Shown: positions 318-12,928 of the stretch, piece after piece
Position numbering within the stretch: the first letter of the stretch is position 1
Layout of the letters: the number at the start of each line of letters is the position of its first letter
IMG/VR virus record: IMGVR_UViG_3300027315_000007
Coordinates: 1-22,793 of that record
Reading direction: 5' to 3' (one strand)
Source: a virus
DNA: 22,793 nucleotides
Program-made: the position numbers and the translations under genes
Notes under the pieces: model-generated
The model's input: only the letters and a program-made list of their open reading frames with translations
Database searches by the model: none
Told to the model about the DNA's origin: nothing

Positions 318-715
318 AATTCGGGATCTTCAGGGAACCAACCATTCTCTTCCATGTACTCTTGATTTCGAACGGTGGTATCGCTTGGGATGATATAACC
401 GAACGGGAACTTCTGATTCGTTTGGACAAATGCAGACAGGGAGAACCGCTCATCATTCGACAGCTCAGGAAAGCACGCCACAAGGCGTTCGAGTATCGCA
501 GCGGGATGTACGTTGATGAGGTAATCCGTATCAACCTGCAAAGCGTTCTGTACTCCGTCAGGGTGTACGATAATCCCGAACACGGTCGAGGCCGCTTCGC
601 CTTCCGCCTGTATCAATACAGGGCGTGAGATGTTGTAGAGTTCGCGCGTGATTTGGTACGCTCTGCGCTCGCTTGTTTGCGTGTCCGTTGGTAGGACTAT
701 GATATATCCGTTCAT
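314..715 (-). CDS. hypothetical protein in tail operon (133 aa)
   Basis: A 133-residue soluble protein of unknown function. Its ATG overlaps the stop of the large tail protein by one base (TGATG), and its own stop overlaps the next start, so it is translated as part of the tail operon. There is no signal peptide or membrane segment. The N-terminal half is a mixed alpha/beta-like sequence beginning MNGYIIVLPTDTQ; the C-terminus is acidic and ends in EDPEL. I recognise no catalytic motif. Its place straight after a fibre-like protein suggests a fibre-assembly, chaperone or minor tail role, which is inference from position only. Confidence 0.6.
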   Translation of the reverse strand: MNGYIIVLPTDTQTSERRAYQITRELYNISRPVLIQAEGEAASTVFGIIVHPDGVQNALQVDTDYLINVHPAAILERLVACFPELSNDERFSLSAFVQTNQKFPFGYIIPSDTTVRNQEYMEENGWFPEDPEL

Positions 716-3700
716 CAGTAGATGCTGTAAAAGGTGTTGATGTTGGTCTCGATGTTGGTGCGGTTGGCTGATTCGTCGGAGTCATAGACTATTAACTCAG
801 ACGCTGTGCCTTTCCAGTAGCTACTAGCTCTCCTTCCGATACGTAAATCCATTTGACCACTAATAACACCTAATGTGCCGCTTGTTGCTGTGGCTCCATT
901 TATACCAAGTTCACCCCCGGTATTATCAAATACTGCATAAACCAATTTACTTGTTGTACTTGGCAATCCGGATAAGTTTATACCGCCATTATTGAAAGCC
1001 CAATATCCCGTAACCCTGTCGTAGAAAAAAGAATTTTCAAATCGGTCAAACTGTCCAAACATTCTCGCGGTTGCATCAAAATTGGTATGATGAATAAAAC
1101 AAGTGGCTACGGACAAGCCTACTGTTGGCGCGCTTATCTCCGTGCTTGTGCCATTAAACTCAACCGCAGGCTTTCCGTTGTCCGTCACTACGCCCGTAGT
1201 CCCGTCGTAAATCTTTGGCATTGAACCCGTGACCGTCTGCGTCGCGTCGTTGCTTCCTGTCTGTGAATACCACTTCGATACATAACCCGAATTTGAACCG
1301 CAATGCGCTGCGAGTGCTAGAGTATCAAGCTCACCGAATACGTTAAACCCTATATCCGCGTAGCTGCTCCCGTTGTAAACCTCTACCGCATCACCTGTGT
1401 AGCTACTCGAAAGCCGTCGCAATGAATACGCAGCCGCTGCACCGCTGTACGTGTCGAGTAGTGGCGTGTTTTGGGTGAAGTAGTCGCCTATGTTTTCTTC
1501 GATGGAGGTGCGGTTGTTTGTTCGGTCGTCCGAGTAAATTATTAATTCTTGGCGGTTACCGACCCAGCTACGTCCGAACGTCCTGTCTTCACTTATTCGA
1601 CCCGCAATCACTGTGTTTGACGTATGAATCATACTTAAAACATATTGCCCCGCGCTTCTCGTTGTCGTGTCAAGGGTTACGGCAGTACCATTTAAATAAT
1701 TTGCACCATCCCAAACCGCTTGAATCGCGTTAGTTGTATTCAGCCATTTACCCGAAATCCCGCTGTGATAATTATAATTGCTACTCGCTCCGAGGATAAA
1801 ACTAGAGTTATTATTTGTAAAGTCGGTAGGTCTTAATACAGAAAAAACACTATTGATGTTTGAGATTTGAGTAAAGCTAAAAGATGTCGAAGATGTTGAA
1901 GTAAAGGCTACGCGCCCTCCATCCTTCACAATCGCCCCACCCGTGTAAATCGTCGGTTCGTTTGCAGGTGCTGCGGCTGTCGCATCGTTCCCGTTTCCGC
2001 TTTGGTCTTTCCAAGTGTAGACCGTGCAAGTCGTACCCGTGCAGAAGGTTTCAATATCTGCCTCCGAGATGTTTCCTGAACCGTCGAAGCCTATCGTTGT
2101 AGTCGTGCTATCCGATGCCCTGCGAATGACCATGCACTCCGTTTGATCCCGTCGGAGTTGCCGCGTTGAATAAGCTGCTTCCGCTCCCTCTCCAAATTGC
2201 TCATCTAACAGTTTCGCGCTTTGGAAGTATGCGGAAATATTACCTTCGATATCTGTTCGGTTTTGGCTCGTTTTTGCTGAAGTGTAAAAAATATACTCCT
2301 GCGCTTTTCCAAGTAAATTGTGTGAAGTTTGCGTTGAAGCACCCAAAACAGAAAAAGAACCTGTACCGCTCAATGATTGCGACGTAGTGTCTGCTCCGTC
2401 GTAACTCATATTTGCCGTCCCGCTTTCCCTTCTAAAAAGTGACAAATATTGGTCACCCGCTGTAATTGTTGGTACAGTAGCGTAATAAGTTGCACCGCTA
2501 AATCTCCAACGTAATGTTGTTGTCGTGGCTTGATACGCTCCAAAATTACCCGTGGGACCACCATATGCAGAATCTGCCGCGCTATGCGTGGCAATGTGAG
2601 CAATTAGACAATCGCTAGTTAGGTCTATTTGTGTAAAATTCAGGTGGTCATTAGAACCGTCAAAATCTAACGCCAAGCGCCCGCCTTCCTTCACAAGCTG
2701 TCCGCCCGTGTAAATAGTCGGCTGCTTCGTTGCCTCTGTTTGGGTTGCGTTGTTCCCGTTGCCCGACTGGTCAAACCAAACTTGGATTGTGCAAGTAGTG
2801 CCACTGCAAAAGGTTTCGATGGCTGATTCATCGATTTCTTCCCCTACGAAGCCGATGCTTTGCGTTGTGCTGTCCGACGCTCTGCGGATGGTCATACAAT
2901 CGCCTGAGTATAGCCCATTCAATCGACGGGTTGAATACGCGGCTTCTGCTCCGCTGCCATACGTTTCGTTAAGTAACCCCGTGAACGCTGGCGCTGCTGT
3001 TACCTCTTCCCACGTTTGCTTGAGGCTGATTGGAACCGTCCCGCCCGTCCTCGCTTTGAGATACTCCAAAAGAGCCGCCTTTGCATTAGCGAAAGTAATA
3101 TCGTCCGCGAGGGTCGTAAACTCTACCCATGTCCCTGTATCGGGGTCTGCAAATGCAGCCTCTGAGTAATATATCTTCCTTTTTATAACCTTTCCCGCTG
3201 TTGGGGTGTCGCTCTCTGCATCCTCTGCGAGTCCGTCCCCGTCCGCTTTGGCGGTGTAATAAAGTTCGAGCGTATCCGTTGCACCGCTTCGGAAGGTCTC
3301 CGCGTCTGTTGCGAAGCGATCGTGATACTGGGTATCAATCGCAATGTCTGCCCACTCCGTATCGTAGTCCGTTCCGCTTGCCTTCACGAGAGCTTGTCCC
3401 AAAGTACCTCCCGCAATGACTCCAACCTTTGCCGTGTTCGCGGTTATCTCTCCCGCTTGAGTCGGTGTGATGCCTGTCTTTGCGTTGTTCGCGGTGATAT
3501 CGTTCGCCTGTTGGGTAGTGATCCCGACCTTCGCTGTGTTGGCTGTTATCTCGCTCGCTTGCGTTGGTGTTATTCCAACCTTTGCCGTATTAGCTACGAC
3601 AGCGGCATTCGCTGCGACCCGTGCCTCTGTGTAATAGAGATTCCCATTCTCGTCAATGTCTCCCGTATCCAATACAACCACGCCCGTTTGACCGTTTACC

Positions 3701-4839
3701 GAGTCGACAGGAACGTTCGGGATATCGGTTGTAAGTGCCAGGGTTCCCGTTGAGCTTGGAAGCAGCACTGTGATATTTCCTGCGTTAGGTGCGCGAAGCC
3801 AAATCTTACCCGTAGCATTCTCCCAATATGTTAACGCCCCTTGTTTGAAGTTGATTTCTGCAATTGTCGATAGAGCGTCGCTCCCTTCGATAGTCATTGC
3901 CTCAAACTCTACTTCGTTCCCTTCCGTACCTGCTGCAACTGCAAAGGACATAACCCCTGGAGAGGCTTCGGTAACTGTCAGACCTGAGAGGTTGACTTTC
4001 ATCTTTGCGCTATTGGCGAGAATGTCGATATACCCCTTCGTCGTGTCGTTGAGGGTGTCGTACATCTGCGCACCTGATCCGCTTGCTTTAAACCGTGCGA
4101 GAAGCTCTTGAAGCCCTCCATTCTTCATCCACTTCTGAACGCCTGAATTGTAGGATAGAACGTCCCCCTGTTCCGGGCTTATGATGTTCACATCGGTCAA
4201 GTCCTCGAGCGTTTCTGCTCCTCCCGTGTTTAAGGTAACCACCCCGTCTCCATCATCGGTGAGGGTGCCGTTCGTTACGTTGATTGTGCGAACGCTAAGG
4301 ACATCGGTTGTGCCGTCGAGCGTCAGCATACGCAAGAACCCGCGTCGAGCATATGAAGGGACATCCCCACCCCCGGGAATTACTCCGTCGATTGGAGCAT
4401 TGCAAGCGTCCCACTCGTAAGGGATCTCAACAGATAAATCGAGCAGCACGCCCGAGAGGACGTTCTTTGTCTCTTCCTCAAGTGGTGTAGTCGTAGCGTT
4501 TACGACTTCATAATCTTGAGCAAAGGTGAAGATATTCCCACCCATGCGGATATCTGCGATAATGTCTTCTGCGCATTGCTCCGCATCAGATACGACCTCC
4601 CGTTGTCGTTCTACCTTATCGGTCTTGTCTGCTGGTACGTCAAGGATATAAACCTCGATGTTGTAGGTCTTTGTCCCGGTGTCATATGTTGCCCCGGTGT
4701 AAACCATGTGCATCAAGGGGAACTCGGTAAACTTTGCGAGGTCTACATCATCCGGAGAGCCGAATGAGAATGACTTAATGAAGAAGTGATTCGTTGCGAA
4801 TACTTCAAACCTTTCGACGATGTTATTGAACGTGATCAT
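715..4839 (-). CDS. tail fibre / spike protein with three GH54-like lectin modules
   Basis: A 1374-residue protein and the largest gene here. Residues 1 to about 155 form a distinct N-terminal domain that probably attaches it to the virion. Residues about 405-475 hold a repeat of roughly 17 residues built on ITANTAKVG, typical of trimeric fibre shafts. From about 621 to the end there are three modules of about 250 residues (near 621, 877 and 1128), each with the pattern AAYS.R.L, a ...IGF strand, and W..QSGN.NATQ or a close variant, followed by P.IY.G. This resembles the concanavalin-fold part of GH54 arabinofuranosidase-B-like proteins found in phage fibres. The first two modules also share FC.GTTCT. 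The modules probably bind host glycans; I cannot confirm catalysis. The start at 4839 sits 15 bases after the 0-frame stop of the upstream chaperone gene and inside the end of its -1 frame. Confidence 0.85.
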   Translation of the reverse strand: MITFNNIVERFEVFATNHFFIKSFSFGSPDDVDLAKFTEFPLMHMVYTGATYDTGTKTYNIEVYILDVPADKTDKVERQREVVSDAEQCAEDIIADIRMGGNIFTFAQDYEVVNATTTPLEEETKNVLSGVLLDLSVEIPYEWDACNAPIDGVIPGGGDVPSYARRGFLRMLTLDGTTDVLSVRTINVTNGTLTDDGDGVVTLNTGGAETLEDLTDVNIISPEQGDVLSYNSGVQKWMKNGGLQELLARFKASGSGAQMYDTLNDTTKGYIDILANSAKMKVNLSGLTVTEASPGVMSFAVAAGTEGNEVEFEAMTIEGSDALSTIAEINFKQGALTYWENATGKIWLRAPNAGNITVLLPSSTGTLALTTDIPNVPVDSVNGQTGVVVLDTGDIDENGNLYYTEARVAANAAVVANTAKVGITPTQASEITANTAKVGITTQQANDITANNAKTGITPTQAGEITANTAKVGVIAGGTLGQALVKASGTDYDTEWADIAIDTQYHDRFATDAETFRSGATDTLELYYTAKADGDGLAEDAESDTPTAGKVIKRKIYYSEAAFADPDTGTWVEFTTLADDITFANAKAALLEYLKARTGGTVPISLKQTWEEVTAAPAFTGLLNETYGSGAEAAYSTRRLNGLYSGDCMTIRRASDSTTQSIGFVGEEIDESAIETFCSGTTCTIQVWFDQSGNGNNATQTEATKQPTIYTGGQLVKEGGRLALDFDGSNDHLNFTQIDLTSDCLIAHIATHSAADSAYGGPTGNFGAYQATTTTLRWRFSGATYYATVPTITAGDQYLSLFRRESGTANMSYDGADTTSQSLSGTGSFSVLGASTQTSHNLLGKAQEYIFYTSAKTSQNRTDIEGNISAYFQSAKLLDEQFGEGAEAAYSTRQLRRDQTECMVIRRASDSTTTTIGFDGSGNISEADIETFCTGTTCTVYTWKDQSGNGNDATAAAPANEPTIYTGGAIVKDGGRVAFTSTSSTSFSFTQISNINSVFSVLRPTDFTNNNSSFILGASSNYNYHSGISGKWLNTTNAIQAVWDGANYLNGTAVTLDTTTRSAGQYVLSMIHTSNTVIAGRISEDRTFGRSWVGNRQELIIYSDDRTNNRTSIEENIGDYFTQNTPLLDTYSGAAAAYSLRRLSSSYTGDAVEVYNGSSYADIGFNVFGELDTLALAAHCGSNSGYVSKWYSQTGSNDATQTVTGSMPKIYDGTTGVVTDNGKPAVEFNGTSTEISAPTVGLSVATCFIHHTNFDATARMFGQFDRFENSFFYDRVTGYWAFNNGGINLSGLPSTTSKLVYAVFDNTGGELGINGATATSGTLGVISGQMDLRIGRRASSYWKGTASELIVYDSDESANRTNIETNINTFYSIY
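718..2980 (-). repeat. three tandem ~250-residue lectin-like modules
   Basis: The C-terminal 750 residues of the tail protein are a threefold repeat, with unit starts near 2977, 2210 and 1458 on the DNA. Modules 1 and 2 are closest (both have IRRASDSTT, FC.GTTCT and DQSGNGN), while module 3 is more divergent (YNGSSYADIGF, WYSQTGSNDATQ). The pattern fits duplication followed by divergence of a receptor-binding unit. Confidence 0.7.
3420..3595 (-). repeat. 51-bp tandem repeat coding ITANTAKVG shaft units
   Basis: Within the tail-fibre gene about three and a half units of 51 bases encode 17-residue repeats with core ITANTAKVGIT.TQA. The protein repeat is clearer than the DNA repeat, because synonymous positions have drifted. 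Such units usually form the triple-stranded shaft between the attachment domain and the tip. Confidence 0.7.
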
Positions 4840-7303: not shown

Positions 7304-7640
7304 CCAACCACGAGAGCGGCTTCTTCTCTTGAACCTCTATCTCTTGCCGTTCGATATATCCGCGCTTCTTGCCTTTGGTCTTGAGGAAGAAGATCGTCGC
7401 GGCTGGGTTGCCTTCCTTCACGAGTTTGTAGAGGTGGGATTCTGCGAAGTCAAGAACACCGTCTTGAATAGAGTTGACCGCGTTCTTATATTCCTCGTCT
7501 GCCTTCAGCCATGCGTAATGGGTCGATCGGTCGATACCTACCATCTTCGCGGCTGTTGATACAATACCCAAAGACTTGTCGAGGGCTTCGAGCATTGCTT
7601 CTTTTTTGGTGTTGGATGTGTTGGTCTTCACGGCTTCCAT
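7296..7640 (-). CDS. terS: terminase small subunit
   Basis: A 114-residue protein with an N-terminal helix-turn-helix (about residues 26-50, STAAKMVGIDRSTHYAWLKA) and a helical middle (LDFAESHLYKLVKEGNPAATIFFL), the usual layout of phBC6A51-type small terminases. It would recognise the packaging site and load the large subunit. It overlaps the downstream terL by eight bases and the upstream methyltransferase by 13, so the three are likely cotranscribed. The C-terminus (EKKPLSWLDE) is the probable contact region for TerL, by analogy. Confidence 0.85.
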   Translation of the reverse strand: MEAVKTNTSNTKKEAMLEALDKSLGIVSTAAKMVGIDRSTHYAWLKADEEYKNAVNSIQDGVLDFAESHLYKLVKEGNPAATIFFLKTKGKKRGYIERQEIEVQEKKPLSWLDE

Positions 7641-9127
7641 AGCTCTGCCTTTTTACCTGTGAAGTCCTCCCATCGCTTTACAATTACGTCGCAATACTTC
7701 GGGTCTAATTCCATGCCGTAACATTTGCGCCCGGTCTTCTCTGCCCCGATGAGGGTCGACCCTGAACCGAGGAAGGGTTCAATCGTTATTGCTCCAATTG
7801 GTGCGCTTGACTTCATGACTCGCTCCATCATTTCAACGGGTTTCGGGGTTGCGTGTCCGTGCCGCTCTTCTCCCTTGACTCTTTCGAATTGCCAAACCTC
7901 TGTCATGTTGTCGTGAGTGTTGTCAAAGAATGCGCGGGTCTTATAGAACTCCTCTTTTATTCTGTCGTGTTCGCGCTTCAAATCGTCGTGTTCGCGCTTG
8001 AAAGCTTCTTTTTTTGCTTCTTGTTGGAGTCTCTTATATTGATCCTCGGTCGGCATCGACCATTGACTTTGAGAGAACCAATGGTCAGCCATACGCGGAT
8101 GAAAACCAAAGAAGCCCGCCACAACTTTATTGTTCCACCCAATTTTGTCTCGTTCGTTTTTTAGGTAGGTTCGCAACGGCTCCCATCCTTCCCAATAGTT
8201 GTCGGAGTTATTATTAAATCCTTGCTCTCCAAGCATGAAGAAAAGAGCGCGTTCCGTAATTGACCCAAAACTCCGACCACTTGAGTTGTTTTGACCATCT
8301 CCCAAGCCCGAAGGAGGTTTAAACCAAACGACTTCATTCCTCATGGTCATTCGCTCAGACTCAGAAAGCCCTCCACGATACCACAACCTCCAAAGGTCGG
8401 GAGCGTTGCCCCAAATGTAAGCGCTCGCGTTGTCTTCGAGATGTGGGCGAAATGCTCTCCACCAATCCATTTGGAACGCGTCTAATTTATCCGAATAAAG
8501 GTTGTCGTTGAGTACCCCGTCTTTCTCTTTGCCCATTCCGTACGGTGGGTCTGCGTGTATCAGCGTGGCTTTCTCTCCGTTCATTAGCTTCTCCACGTCC
8601 TCCGCCTTCGTAGAGTCCCCACAAAGCAAACGATGCCCTCCCAAGATATACAAGTCTCCGAGTTTGGTCTTTGGCTCTTCCGGTGCTTCGGGTACTTCGT
8701 CGGGGTCGGTCAATCCTTCGACCTCTTCTTCTTCTTCGGGTTGCCATACATCGAGACCCCATTCATCGAGTTCTGCTGCGTCCCATTCGTTCGCGAGGAT
8801 ATCCCAATCCCATTCGCCAAAACCGACGTTATCTTTCACGATGAACTCCTTCGCCTTGCTTTCTTCCCATGTAGCGACATAGACGGGTGCCTCGGTCAGT
8901 CCTGCGGCTTTGGCTGCCTTTAGCCTCATGTTACCACCGAGGACAATCATATCCGGATTGACTACAATTGGACGCGCTTCGAGCATCTCCGGAAACTCCT
9001 TTATACTCGTTACGAGCTTTTGGAATTTATCGTCTTTAATTATCCGAGGGTTCGTCGGGTTTTGTTTGATCCCCGAGAGTTTCATTGGCTTGATCGAGGA
9101 CGGCTTCGAGGGTGTATCTGAATTCAT
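7628..9127 (-). CDS. ParB-domain / DNA methyltransferase fusion
   Basis: A 499-residue fusion. Residues about 12-110 are a ParB/Srx-like N-terminal domain (KLSGIKQNPTNPRII, LGGNMRLKAAKAAG). An acidic linker follows (near 128-155). The methyltransferase starts near GDLYILGGHRLLCGDS, with catalytic DPPY at about 192-195 and the cofactor motif FLGSGST at about 450, the beta order of amino-methyltransferases that make N6-methyladenine or N4-methylcytosine. Between them lies a charged coiled-coil insert (KREHDDLKREHD). No restriction endonuclease is nearby, so it probably protects phage DNA or marks it for packaging or replication. Its start overlaps the previous gene by 92 bases; Met15 at 9085 is an alternative. 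Confidence 0.88.
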   Translation of the reverse strand: MNSDTPSKPSSIKPMKLSGIKQNPTNPRIIKDDKFQKLVTSIKEFPEMLEARPIVVNPDMIVLGGNMRLKAAKAAGLTEAPVYVATWEESKAKEFIVKDNVGFGEWDWDILANEWDAAELDEWGLDVWQPEEEEEVEGLTDPDEVPEAPEEPKTKLGDLYILGGHRLLCGDSTKAEDVEKLMNGEKATLIHADPPYGMGKEKDGVLNDNLYSDKLDAFQMDWWRAFRPHLEDNASAYIWGNAPDLWRLWYRGGLSESERMTMRNEVVWFKPPSGLGDGQNNSSGRSFGSITERALFFMLGEQGFNNNSDNYWEGWEPLRTYLKNERDKIGWNNKVVAGFFGFHPRMADHWFSQSQWSMPTEDQYKRLQQEAKKEAFKREHDDLKREHDRIKEEFYKTRAFFDNTHDNMTEVWQFERVKGEERHGHATPKPVEMMERVMKSSAPIGAITIEPFLGSGSTLIGAEKTGRKCYGMELDPKYCDVIVKRWEDFTGKKAELWKP

Positions 9128-9457: not shown

Positions 9458-9837
9458 TCTGTTTCGTTTATTAGCTTTTGTAGCTCCGCAAGCATTCGAC
9501 GGTTGCACGAACTGCATTGACTTGCTTGGGTGTTCGTTCCTGTGACCTTCGAATAAAGCTTCGCGAGCTGTCCGTTTGTTCTGAATTGGTTCTCTGTTTT
9601 GAGAAATGTCTTGATCGCTTCGAGGTCTGCTTGTTTTATTTCTGCTTCCCACTTACTTAGAGGACAGGAGGCAACCTTGAGACGGGTCTTCGTGGGCATA
9701 TGACAGCCGCACAACTCCGAGTCGGTGAAGGCTTCTGTCACGAGGTCTCCGCAACTCTTGGTCTTGTCGACGAAGTGTTCGCAGCCTTTGCAGATATTAA
9801 GTCGGTCAGTCCTCTTTTGTGCCGTTACGAAGAACAT
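9454..9837 (-). CDS. cysteine-rich, probably zinc-binding protein (127 aa)
   Basis: Cysteines occur in pairs or near-pairs: ICKGCEHF and KSCGD in the first 30 residues, LCGCHMPTK near 43, SCPLSKW near 58, and QCSSCNR near 107-113. This is a likely structural zinc site in the N-terminal half, with a second Cys pair near the C-terminus. I associate such small proteins with early regions of Bacteroidota phages, but no activity is known to me. It overlaps the sigma-like gene upstream by 32 bases and the next gene by four. Confidence 0.65.
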   Translation of the reverse strand: MFFVTAQKRTDRLNICKGCEHFVDKTKSCGDLVTEAFTDSELCGCHMPTKTRLKVASCPLSKWEAEIKQADLEAIKTFLKTENQFRTNGQLAKLYSKVTGTNTQASQCSSCNRRMLAELQKLINETE

Positions 9838-10291
9838 CTTTCAGGATTTTTCGGGTGATGTGTAGTGAGCGATAAAGGGTCGATTCTCCAATGCGAGACC
9901 GTCGAGATACGTCAGCCATGTTCCACCCTTGCAGGTATAGAGAGAAGATGGTTCTATCAAACCAGGATAGGCGGTCAAGGATGAGTTGCATTTGCTCTCG
10001 TTGAATGGCTTTTGTCCAATCGCTTTCGAAGGCTTGTTCTTTGGGGTCGGCATCTGTTACGTGATATAAGTCTTTGAATTTTCCTCGTGTCGCTTCGGTG
10101 TACATGGCTTTAACAAAGTACCCGAGCGGGTTTTCACTATCCCCATCGGGAAAGCGTTTGTCTAAACATCGAAGGTAAGTGTGATGTACAAGGTCGGAAG
10201 GGCTGTCCGTCCATCGTCGAGCGATGCGAACAAGTTTTGAATAATGCTTCGTTAAAAAGCTATTCCAACCCTTTCGACTTCCTGAGTTCAT
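9806..10291 (-). CDS. sigma-70-family-like transcription factor
   Basis: A 161-residue protein with the two-part layout of small (ECF-like) sigma factors. A region-2-like helix lies near residues 18-45 (LVRIARRWTDSPSDLVHHTY), where DLV..TYLR matches the usual core-binding helix. A region-4-like HTH lies near 105-150 (DRTIFSLYLQGWNMADVSRR then IGESTLYRSLHITRK). It could direct host RNA polymerase to phage late promoters. It overlaps ninG by 32 bases. The first recognisable ATG (10291) is used. A DNA-binding protein of RinA/ArpU type with the same HTH would be the main alternative. Confidence 0.75.
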   Translation of the reverse strand: MNSGSRKGWNSFLTKHYSKLVRIARRWTDSPSDLVHHTYLRCLDKRFPDGDSENPLGYFVKAMYTEATRGKFKDLYHVTDADPKEQAFESDWTKAIQREQMQLILDRLSWFDRTIFSLYLQGWNMADVSRRSRIGESTLYRSLHITRKILKDVLRNGTKED

Positions 10292-10661
10292 TTACCTTCT
10301 CTTTATATATTTTGCAAAGTGCCTCCAACTCGTGAACGCTGAATCGCTTTGTTTCGTTGCTCAACCGAACGAGACGATCCGCTGTCCCTTCTCCGTGTAG
10401 TTCGTCGAGGCGTTTCGCGAATTCGTATTGTGCTCCCCCTTCGAATCCGTTGCACGCCTTGCATTGGAATTGAACGTTCAACTCATCGAAGCGGGTGGGC
10501 ATCTTCTGACGTACCATGAAATGCCCTGCGTCTGCGCTCTTGTAATGGCGCAAGCGATCGCAAGTGAAACAAGCTCCCCACCCTTCATCGTTGACCGCAC
10601 GCAGCCGGATGAACTGAGAGAATATCTTGTCGAGTTTCTTCTTTGCTTTGCTTAAACTCAT
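10260..10661 (-). CDS. ninG: NinG/Rap-like recombination nuclease
   Basis: A 133-residue NinG-family protein. Conserved features in order: C31xxC34, AGHF (residues 45-48), RFDELNVQ (57-64), C67xxCN (67-71), and a GAQYEF segment. The paired cysteines and the GHF histidine outline a zinc-supported HNH-like fold. Lambda NinG (Rap) is a branched-DNA (Holliday junction) endonuclease acting in phage recombination. The start overlaps the stop of the methyltransferase in an ATGA junction. The length is shorter than lambda NinG (about 200 residues) but spans the core domain. Placement among replication genes fits processing of replication or recombination intermediates. Confidence 0.85.
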   Translation of the reverse strand: MSLSKAKKKLDKIFSQFIRLRAVNDEGWGACFTCDRLRHYKSADAGHFMVRQKMPTRFDELNVQFQCKACNGFEGGAQYEFAKRLDELHGEGTADRLVRLSNETKRFSVHELEALCKIYKEKVNELRKSKGLE

Positions 10662-11551
10662 AAAACCTCGGTTTTTTTAAATATGAGGATGTTTTGATGA
10701 ATCTTTACAAGTTTTCTACTCTTCATGTTTCCGTTCGCCCTCATCGAAGCACTCGCAATTGGATTTAATAATATTGCTTCATTGTAGAATTTCATGCCGC
10801 ACCTTTCAAACGCCTTGACTGTATCGGGAACGAATCCAATATAATTGCCTTTTTTATCTCTTACCTCTCCAACCACAAAACAAGCGAATCCGCCAGCGGT
10901 CAAGAGATTGCAAGATTTTTGAATTATAGATTCATAGAGTTCGAAAAATTCTTTATAAGGCTTGTTCGAGATGTCTCCTTCTAGATCGCTGTATATCTCA
11001 AGATTCGCATATGGAGGACAACTAAAAACCAAATCAAATTCTTTTTTCAATCCTTCTAGAACCTCCTTTGAATCGCCAACATACCAATTTGGTTGATTAT
11101 TAACCTCCAAAATTTCAACACCTTGTTCTCTGTTGCTTGCTATTTGTTCTTCTCTTATATCAATTCCGGTATACTTGTATCCTAGTTTATTTGCTACAAT
11201 ACCGCGAACCGAACCACCCGCAAAGGGGTCGAGTATGCGCCCTCCCTTTGGGCAAAACCAATGATAAAGAACTTCACACAAAGCAGGATCAAAAATGGAG
11301 GTATAATTATCTTTGTTGTCATATCCTTGTTTCTTTGATATGTCCCGGTATAAATCCGTTCCGCTGTTTATGGATTTTGCGACGCGTCCAATTTCGCTTT
11401 TTATACCGAGTTTTTTCCAAGTCTTTTTCCGTCTCTGCCAATTACCCGTCTTCGTGTCTAAAACGCTAAACGGAGGCTCGATGAATTCATCTCGCAAAAT
11501 CGGGTCGGTAACTATTACCTCGCCAAAGAGATTTACTTGTTCATTTATCAT
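10658..11551 (-). CDS. DNA amino-methyltransferase
   Basis: A 297-residue methyltransferase. The cofactor site DPFAGGSVRG lies near residues 106-115, followed by GYKYTGIDIREEQI, and the catalytic SCPPY near 178-182. The motif order (cofactor site first) and the CPPY variant suggest an N6-adenine or N4-cytosine enzyme. The N-terminus EQVNLFGE (residues 4-11) contains QxxLF, similar to a beta-clamp-binding motif. This gene looks more A/T-rich than its neighbours, which may mean separate acquisition. There is no adjacent nuclease gene. It overlaps its upstream neighbour by 11 bases and ninG by four. The target sequence cannot be predicted. Confidence 0.85.
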   Translation of the reverse strand: MINEQVNLFGEVIVTDPILRDEFIEPPFSVLDTKTGNWQRRKKTWKKLGIKSEIGRVAKSINSGTDLYRDISKKQGYDNKDNYTSIFDPALCEVLYHWFCPKGGRILDPFAGGSVRGIVANKLGYKYTGIDIREEQIASNREQGVEILEVNNQPNWYVGDSKEVLEGLKKEFDLVFSCPPYANLEIYSDLEGDISNKPYKEFFELYESIIQKSCNLLTAGGFACFVVGEVRDKKGNYIGFVPDTVKAFERCGMKFYNEAILLNPIASASMRANGNMKSRKLVKIHQNILIFKKTEVL

Positions 11552-12095
11552 TAGGCGCGTTTAATCCGGGTATCAAGAAGGGGTTGTTCTTCATGCGCCA
11601 TTCGAGGCGTGCTTGTTCGGGGTCGTAAGGCTTTACGTTGTGCGGGTCTTCGGCTCCTCGACTTACCGTCTTGTGTTGTTGCTCCAGGAGAGGCGCTCGT
11701 TCTGCTTCGTGCTTGATAATGCAGTCGCGGAACTCCTGAATCTTGAGTCGCTCAAAGAAGTTGCCGTAGTACCCTTGTTTCATCCTCTCGCAAATTAGCC
11801 TCAATTCCTCGAGTTTCAAAACCGGGAATACTTCGAAGATCGTTTCTGCGCAAAGTGCCATGTCCTCGAATGAGTGAAGGGTCTTCTTTGCGTCTATGAA
11901 TTGAATTGTCTTGTTGATCATCGTCACGACAGCCGCCCGAGTCTCTTCGGGATGGTAACGAAGTGCGGTTAGGATGTTAGTACCCTCCCACGCTTCTTCG
12001 TTGGTGGGTTTATAGATGCCCGTGCTTGAGATATGCTTCAAGCTGGTCTTGGCTTGGTTGCTTTGGAGTTCCTGTTTTGTTCGTTGTAAATTCAT
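11541..12095 (-). CDS. hypothetical replication-region protein (184 aa)
   Basis: A 184-residue, mostly helical protein without a recognised catalytic motif. A central segment (LRLICERMKQGYYGNFFERL followed by KIQEFRDCI) resembles proteins I have seen in Bacteroidota phages next to replication initiators, possibly a helicase-loader or accessory role, but this is inference. The ATG at 12095 overlaps the initiator gene by 86 bases, long for this operon; a TTG at 12041 is an alternative start. The C-terminus overlaps the methyltransferase start by 11 bases. Confidence 0.6.
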   Translation of the reverse strand: MNLQRTKQELQSNQAKTSLKHISSTGIYKPTNEEAWEGTNILTALRYHPEETRAAVVTMINKTIQFIDAKKTLHSFEDMALCAETIFEVFPVLKLEELRLICERMKQGYYGNFFERLKIQEFRDCIIKHEAERAPLLEQQHKTVSRGAEDPHNVKPYDPEQARLEWRMKNNPFLIPGLNAPNDK

Positions 12096-12735
12096 GACTT
12101 CGTTTTATCCAGTTACGCGCGGCAGCATTCCAATTCTTCATCTTGTTTCTGCCCGCTTTCCATCCGTTGGCTTCGTAGTAGTTCCAAAACTTCTCGCCTT
12201 CGTCGCGAGATGATCCCGCAAGTTCGAATGAATTCATCGCTTCTTCCAAACTTGGTTCTTGAAAACGTACTCTCTTCACTACTTCTTTACTCTTCTCTAT
12301 ACTCTTCTCTTTACTCTGCGCAACTGTAGTTGCAACTTTTGCGCCTATAGTTGCAACTTTTGCAACTGTAGTTGCTTCTACTTGCAACGATTGTTGCTTG
12401 TTCCGATCGTTGCTTGTTCCGATTGTTGCTTCTACAAGTACGCTCATCTTCCTTCGATGACCATACCCTTCACATTTGATGTGTGCGGTCTCGCAAAGTT
12501 CCTTGCGCATCTTGCGGATGTATTGAGAAGATACCCCAAGAGACTCAGCGAGGAAGTCATCTCCTGCCCAACACGAACCGTCTTTGTGACTGAGCGCGTG
12601 AATTTTAGAGAGGAGAATTCTTTGCATGGGAGAGATGTCATTCAATGCCCAAATCTCCTGGGGGATCCATATTCCGTTCATTCTTACAAAGTTATATCGT
12701 AATTCAGAAAGGTCATTCAATACCCTCTCTTTCAC
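12010..12735 (-). CDS. replication initiator-like protein (winged helix + DnaT/O-like C-terminus)
   Basis: A 241-residue protein with two parts. Residues about 20-90 (WIPQEIWALNDISPMQRILL ... AGDDFLAESLGVSSQYIRKM) are a winged-helix domain as in phage replisome organisers. Residues about 95-150 are a low-complexity linker of VATTVAK/VATIGAK heptads and then SKEKSIEKSKEV. The C-terminal part (FWNYYEANGWKAGRNKMKNW then AARNWIKR) is the short motif seen in DnaT and phage replication proteins that contact helicase or loader. The DNA of the linker carries iteron-like repeats, as in lambda O, so it may bind its own gene as origin. It overlaps the HTH gene by 23 bases. Confidence 0.75.
   Translation of the reverse strand: MKERVLNDLSELRYNFVRMNGIWIPQEIWALNDISPMQRILLSKIHALSHKDGSCWAGDDFLAESLGVSSQYIRKMRKELCETAHIKCEGYGHRRKMSVLVEATIGTSNDRNKQQSLQVEATTVAKVATIGAKVATTVAQSKEKSIEKSKEVVKRVRFQEPSLEEAMNSFELAGSSRDEGEKFWNYYEANGWKAGRNKMKNWNAAARNWIKRSHEFTTNKTGTPKQPSQDQLEAYLKHGHL
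12271..12429 (-). repeat. candidate replication origin: iteron-like repeats plus purine tract
   Basis: Six GTTGC copies on the plus strand end at 12333, 12354, 12375, 12397, 12413 and 12429, spaced 21, 21, 22, 16 and 16 bases. Two exact copies of the near-palindrome GCAACTGTAGTTGC (12320-12333 and 12362-12375) and a related GCAACGATTGTTGC (12384-12397) lie within. Directly adjacent, 12271-12317 is almost all purine on the coding strand, with GAGAAGAGTA repeats. Iterons plus purine/AT tract inside an initiator gene is the layout of the lambda origin. Confidence 0.55.
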
Positions 12736-12928
12736 ACAACAGAACTTCTTCGACGATCTCCGCGTATGTCGCTCCGCACGACTCGGATATCTCCGGGAGG
12801 TGCTTAAGGATATTCCGAGGCATACGCCCGCACCAATTGCGGACGGTGTTCGGGGTTACATCCAGAGTTTGAGCTGCGTTGAATGTCGAGCCGTAGTTCC
12901 TTATCAAGAACAGCTTGATATTATTCAT
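12713..12928 (-). CDS. small helix-turn-helix protein (71 aa)
   Basis: A 71-residue protein with an HTH around residues 8-34 (IRNYGSTFNAAQTLDVTPNT then VRNWCGR), where AAQTLDVTPNTVRNW is the characteristic segment, similar to small Cro/YdaS-like regulators. It lies at the head of the initiator gene and overlaps it by 23 bases, so it may regulate the replication operon or help at the origin. It overlaps the upstream gene by eight bases. No dimerisation or cofactor domain is visible. Confidence 0.65.
   Translation of the reverse strand: MNNIKLFLIRNYGSTFNAAQTLDVTPNTVRNWCGRMPRNILKHLPEISESCGATYAEIVEEVLLCEREGIE

Follow-up and report, generated by a model that had tools for sequence, protein, structure and literature searches.

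A repeat array and the low-stability tract adjoining it very probably constitute the replication origin of an uncultured phage, embedded in the gene of that phage's own initiator. The DNA analyzed here, a 22.8-kb virus record (the window), contains an initiator gene carrying six short sites that are constrained as DNA, retain a fixed geometry among relatives, adjoin the weakest duplex of the gene, and change in sequence with the N-terminal domain of the encoded protein. A candidate lambda-like origin inside an initiator gene had been proposed in a sequence-only reading of the window, and the proposal is supported by conservation at the DNA level and by an equivalent signature in lambda O. The result provides a precise and testable candidate origin for uncultured phages, probably of Bacteroidota, consisting of an array at 12320-12429, a tract at 12271-12317, and a protein encoded at 12010-12681.

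Protein comparison with named phages indicates ∼43% identity of the large terminase of the window to those of Flavobacterium and Bacteroides phages, and 34% identity of the portal to those of Nonlabens phages P12024S/L. Because the closest named relatives by protein are Bacteroidota phages, the host phylum is probably Bacteroidota. The replication module of phage P12024S, the nearest by portal, differs and has a VirE-type primase; the initiator gene has no DNA-level match among the phage records of the collection, and PF13730 has just six matches in 198 surveyed genomes that belong to the class of G014.

The initiator matches HTH_36 (PF13730) in a Pfam scan with an E-value of 2.7e-6 and a score of 27.5 bits, compared with the Pfam cut-off of 25, and it matches phrog_270, phrog_2880 and phrog_19658, annotated 'replication initiation protein', and phrog_391, annotated 'O-like'. 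Similarity to O-like PHROGs extends over residues 28–173 for phrog_391 (E 1.6e-5) and residues 29–144 for phrog_345 (E 0.0066), the C-terminus being of another type. In the AlphaFold model the N-terminal domain is composed of helices and wing strands with a pLDDT of about 80, the linker (residues 84–139) has a pLDDT of about 33 and is probably disordered, and the C-terminal part is poorly modeled. The top Foldseek matches of the protein include the Rep N-terminal domains 4pql, 4pt7, and 5kbj with weak E-values; no Rep match is returned by a profile search of solved structures, and no match to RepA_N (PF06970) by the Pfam scan. The N-terminal HTH_36 domain is the predicted binder of the array sites, and the C-terminal domain presumably contacts host replication proteins.

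The array occupies the gene segment between the HTH_36 and C-terminal domains. On the + strand GTTGC starts at 12329, 12350, 12371, 12393, 12409, and 12425, in steps of 21, 21, 22, 16, and 16, exactly as first noted; in coding-strand order these are six sites starting GCAAC in steps of 16, 16, 22, 21, and 21 bp. The ideal unit is the dyad GCAAC-N4-GTTGC. Two identical 14-base near-palindromes, described earlier as lying 42 bases apart, are present as GCAACTGTAGTTGC at 12320-12333 and 12362-12375. Perfect GCAACNNNNGTTGC has three copies in the 22.8 kb, all within the array, and allowing one mismatch gives four matches, compared with 0.5 expected and a count of four reached in 0 of 100 shuffles. 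At this location, 21-bp and 16-bp arrays are detected by Tandem Repeats Finder. Site 5 and sites 1 and 2 of the window are not full palindromes, which is counted against the origin reading.

Table 1. Coordinates of the initiator gene, its array sites and adjoining tract, and other features of the window.
Feature	Position	Strand	Remarks
Replication initiator gene, HTH_36 phage type	12010-12681	-	223 aa, ATG at 12681
Alternative in-frame start of initiator	GTG at 12735	-	Relatives use the ATG equivalent to 12681
HTH_36 / winged-helix N-terminal domain	12487-12639	-	Pfam residues 33–83 of 241-aa frame
Site 1, GCAACAATCGGAAC	12416-12429	-	Half site; full palindrome in some relatives; frame 0
Site 2, GCAACGATCGGAAC	12400-12413	-	Half site; frame 1
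Site 3, GCAACAATCGTTGC	12384-12397	-	Full palindrome; frame 2
Site 4, GCAACTACAGTTGC	12362-12375	-	Full palindrome; frame 0 in window, frame 2 in groups B and C
Site 5, GCAACTATAGGCGC	12341-12354	-	Right arm degenerate in window, full palindrome in most relatives; frame 0
Site 6, GCAACTACAGTTGC	12320-12333	-	Full palindrome; frame 0
Candidate DNA-unwinding element, low-stability purine-rich tract	12271-12317	-	Least stable 45 bp of the gene, starting 2 bp past site 6
C-terminal domain, KFWNYYEANGWKAGRNKMKNW type	12010-12264	-	Unrelated domain instead in groups D and E, L071, and L095
Conserved next gene, DUF6633-like	11541-12095	-	184 aa; homologue after initiator in 13 of 13 contigs examined
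Cro/YdaS-like HTH gene	12713-12928	-	71 aa; constant length upstream of initiator in groups A-D
Second N6/N4-type methylase	10658-11551
NinG/Rap-like gene	10260-10661	-	Close after initiator; recurs in relatives of groups A-D
Sigma-70/ECF-like protein	9806-10291	-	After NinG/Rap-like gene; recurs in relatives of groups A-D
ParB_N domain fused to N6/N4 DNA methylase	7628-9127	-	Pfam scan
1374-aa protein, probably tail or receptor-binding protein	715-4839	-	At least three internal module copies, starting AAYSxRRL and ending near NRTxIExNI

Viral contigs, searched at the protein level, provided 44 relatives, and the 46 distinct genes, including that of the window, were assigned to groups A to E. 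In 44 of the 46 genes, the first and last sites are exactly 96 bp apart. The 22-bp step is the third in group A, the fourth in most of group B, and the fifth in group C, and as a result of its differing place the reading frame of the sites differs among groups. Site 4 encodes ATTVA, ATIVA, or ATIGA in group A and a peptide rich in Q and L in groups B and C, and across the relatives equivalent array DNA encodes EATTVAK in some and QLQLQ, QPQLQ, or QQSLQ in others. In these alignments the DNA and the geometry of the array are seen to be kept while the encoded peptide changes completely. A search of 2.9 million viral contigs for two perfect palindromes 21 bp apart finds 62 stretches, 51 of them in the initiator family of the window. 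One of the 62 belongs to a phage protein outside that family (L123, 9600-10322), which carries GGCAACCACAGTTGCC-type dyads; its peptides QPQLPIGNHS and LGNHSVP suggest that it is probably an initiator of another family, and its dyad site is apparently convergent.

Within the window gene itself the array copies lie in frames 0, 1, 2, 0, 0, and 0, thereby occupying all three reading frames, and a single protein contains ATIGT, SNDRN, KQQSL, and ATTVA as translations of the repeat unit. Because copies occur in all three frames, heptads do not explain the array. The suggestion that the 21-base units code heptads (VATTVAK, VATIGAK) holds for three of the six sites and fails for the others, which read ATIGT, SNDRN, and KQQSL, and the related suggestion that coding and binding constraints overlap is partly right, half of the sites being outside the heptads. 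In synonymous codon shuffles that preserve the protein, GCAAC/GTTGC words number 3.8 (maximum 10) compared with 11 observed, and repeated 8-mer positions number 6 (maximum 43) compared with 67 observed, neither observed value being reached in any of 20,000 shuffles; the word GCAAC was picked after inspection, and the repeated-8-mer measure is independent of that word. Groups A, C, and D have synonymous change rates per synonymous site of 0.059, 0.054, and 0.039, respectively, in the array, compared with 0.30, 0.50, and 0.29 in the N-terminal part and with 0.161, 0.390, and 0.238 as the lowest values in any other equal-size window of the same genes. Synonymous change is thus 4 to 9 times lower in the array than elsewhere in the gene in these groups, within each of which sequences share ancestry, so that the rates are not independent; the three groups differ enough to be considered three tests. 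A test set in advance was whether relatives keep the heptads while their DNA repeats are scrambled, and the opposite is seen: sites and spacing are kept, the peptide changes, and synonymous change is reduced. These sequence comparisons show the array repeats to be constrained as DNA and not as protein.

The second element of the candidate origin adjoins site 6. A purine-rich stretch at about 12271-12319, containing GAGAAGAGTA twice on its coding strand, is present in the window, as had been reported, but it is the low duplex stability of this stretch and not its purine content that is kept. The tract has a purine content of 0.85 in the window and of 0.67–0.75 in several relatives; because purine content falls in relatives while stability stays lowest, low duplex stability is the conserved feature, and the purine tract as such was rejected. 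The weakest 45 bp of the gene is situated 1–15 bp past the last site in 45 of 45 genes tested. For the tract, the observation is reached in 57 of 20,000 codon-null shuffles for the window and in 0–10 of 5,000 for seven relatives. The tract is the weakest stretch of the gene and not of the whole window, some other places of which are weaker. A GC-skew check, also proposed in the sequence-only reading, gave no support, with no cumulative turning point at the array in either the window or a 40-kb relative; nearly all genes run one way, which makes this test weak.

The sequence of the sites is associated with the N-terminal domain. Group D, L071, and L095 have the N-domain type and the sites of the window together with a different C-terminal domain, while L185 (initiator at 3001-3756) has a C-terminal domain of the window type, an N-domain that is 51% identical, and sites of the form GTTCC-N4-GGAAC or half sites thereof in the same 16/21-bp grammar. 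Taken together, these patterns indicate that the site sequence tracks the N-domain rather than the C-terminus. In both L185 and L186 the 16/21-bp grammar with GTTCC half-sites is found alongside a changed recognition helix, CTVPYIRKLRK. Further HTH_36 initiators have other repeats at 22–23 bp in several frames with the weakest duplex of the gene next to them, namely GGAACCACAGTTCC in L191, GTGCGGGGCAG in L198, and CGGACAG/GGGTGGG in L188 and L207; the weakest 45 bp thus follows the last site in L185, L188, L191, L198, and L207, in which the repeats differ.

An unbiased 9-mer frame-hopping test applied to 25 usable linker-bearing genes of initiator type, several of which belong to one group and are therefore not independent cases, gives 0–1 of 500 shuffles for 18, including the window. 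L046 and L242 are intermediate and outside the 18, at 10 and 6 of 500, respectively. The exceptions are L025 of group B (104 of 500), in which the copies differ by mismatches, and L195, L055, L239, and L244, in which no 9-mer frame-hopping signal is found. L044 and L243 are short HTH-only proteins lacking a linker, and L237 and L241, two of the six loci from the PF13730 survey, were left out. We lean toward the interpretation that in HTH_36 phage initiators the N-terminal domain, the array, and the weak duplex form one transferable cassette that is combined with varied C-terminal domains, and that its specificity can be switched array-wide at kept spacing, as from GCAAC to GTTCC in L185. If this interpretation is true, the origins of uncultured phages could be located from sequence alone by frame-hopping repeats beside the weakest duplex of the gene, tested against a null that preserves the protein. 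In initiator genes, the frame-hopping test distinguishes repeats kept as DNA from repeats kept as protein, and it picks out the known origin of lambda; applied to metagenomes, it could serve to find phage origins together with their cognate domains.

Other roles for the array are all improbable to differing degrees. The one that survives best, although still with little probability, is that the sites are operators through which the initiator or another phage regulator controls its own operon, with the origin elsewhere. An early operon could be repressed through a multi-site array of dyads inside it, a Cro-like gene (12713-12928) is found just upstream of the initiator, and a site sequence that follows the N-domain fits any role of that domain. 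However, the array is some 250 bp inside the gene and not at a promoter, an operator would not be expected to have a conserved weak duplex on one fixed side at a set distance, and in lambda O the equivalent layout has been proven to be an origin (PMC3349717).

Palindromes acting as mRNA hairpins that control translation, stability, or attenuation are a distinctly poorer explanation. The array does fold better than shuffled RNA (z = −4.3), but perfect DNA dyads fold trivially as RNA, the arms are nearly invariant in the family, and the pairing lost at degenerate sites (GGAAC, GGCGC) is not compensated. The 21–23 bp spacing is suited to the helical phase of DNA, and no Rfam family matches the array. 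RNA hairpins and known RNA families were accordingly rejected, given the lack of both compensatory change and an Rfam match.

Very improbable as well is an origin of the repeats as a by-product, either of selection for a repetitive linker peptide with heptads like VATTVAK or of neutral slippage. Slippage does create tandem repeats and three sites do code heptads, but the other copies are in other frames, relatives encode QLQLQ, QPQLQ, and QQSLQ from equivalent DNA, the codon-shuffle null is 0 of 20,000 and synonymous change is suppressed 4–9 fold, the 96-bp span is fixed, and the linker is predicted to be disordered. A heptad-repeat protein as cause of the array is refuted in its simple form by the frames, the peptides of relatives, and the synonymous change. 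Comparably slight is the probability that the array is a partition centromere or a packaging signal and not an origin: iteron arrays also act as centromeres and a ParB_N-methylase fusion is encoded at 7628-9127, but a methylase domain forms part of that fusion, neither ParA nor ParM was noticed among the genes of the window, and the array, located in the initiator gene, tracks the N-domain of that same initiator.

For the preferred reading, an origin within the initiator gene, lambda (PMC3349717), SPP1 (PMC6316719), and pSK41 (PMC5703833) are the models from which we infer occupation of the array by the N-domain, opening of the tract, and recruitment of the helicase; dimer stoichiometry and origin activity are inferences as well. 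The N-terminal winged-helix domain, presumably as a dimer, would bind the GCAAC-N4-GTTGC dyads in the linker DNA, which are spaced mostly two helical turns apart. The resulting nucleoprotein complex would strain the adjacent 45-bp weak duplex on the C-terminal coding side so that it opens, and the C-terminal domain, probably together with the product of the next gene, would then bring in the host replicative helicase. Use of a host helicase is plausible, since 10 related records, fragments among them, yielded no DnaB-type helicase gene. The helicase-loading step itself is unsupported, because the C-terminal model is poor and the downstream gene matches no solved fold.

The next gene occupies the position of lambda P, and our guess is that it acts in helicase loading. 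Members of its family match DUF6633 in 8 of 11 cases with a best E-value of 6e-5, DUF6633 being the sole Pfam match, and the AlphaFold model of the product has a core pLDDT of about 85 with no fold match in the PDB. As a known helicase loader the gene was rejected for these reasons, the missing PDB match and a Pfam assignment to DUF6633 only. In most relatives and in all groups the first ATG of this gene lies roughly 80–160 bp inside the 3′ end of the initiator gene, the overlap in the window being 12010-12095, and the overlap frame gives similar N-termini, for example MDGKAY from NGWQGLF.

An origin inside the initiator gene is textbook knowledge for lambda, and a review by Weigel and Seitz (2006) reportedly lists many such origins. 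No report of an in-initiator origin for Bacteroidota phages was found in the open-access literature searched; the earlier statement that the arrangement is undescribed for these phages agrees with that literature, and elsewhere the arrangement is well known.

The lambda origin, which is proven, consists of four 18-bp iterons and a 38-bp AT-rich sequence (PMC3349717). With lambda O as a control, the four annotated iterons are in frames 0, 2, 2, and 1, the weakest 45 bp is 11 bp past iteron 4, and the frame-hopping test gives 0 of 500 shuffles. The lambda-like organization perceived in the sequence-only reading is thereby matched in its quantitative signature of three frames, adjoining weak duplex, and frame-hopping null. 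As in lambda O and ori-lambda, the candidate origin is in the initiator gene with dyad iterons in the inter-domain region, an AT-rich or weak tract is by the last iteron on the C-terminal side, and the next gene is at the P position. Unlike lambda, in which the iteron is ATCCCTCAAAACGAGGGA and four sites are arranged at 20, 24, and 23 bp, the window has six sites at 16, 21, or 22 bp, its PHROG O-like similarity is weak and mainly N-terminal, and its next gene is not recognizably P.

The product of SPP1 gene 38 binds direct repeats of oriL, which lies within that gene and is flanked by an AT-rich unwinding element (PMC6316719). The likeness to the window, which is by published description, is in repeats inside an initiator gene next to an easily melted element; SPP1 differs in having a second origin (oriR) as well as a loader and a helicase of its own. 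In the rep gene of pSK41 the winged-helix N-domain binds Rep boxes in the middle of rep, where the protein sequence of the linker is dispensable, and in the hybrid rep of pPR9 a phage-like PF13730 (HTH_36) N-domain replaces the RepA_N domain together with the origin region, and the hybrid replicates (PMC5703833). The window initiator resembles pSK41 rep in having a winged-helix N-domain and sites that are central in the gene, their binding being predicted here, and differs from it in that pSK41 is a plasmid and not a phage, RepA_N and HTH_36 are separate Pfam families, and the C-terminal domain differs. The arrangement is thus a known one, represented by lambda, SPP1, and pSK41, and what is new is the phage family, the frame-hopping evidence, and the occurrence in most of the linker-bearing initiators sampled.
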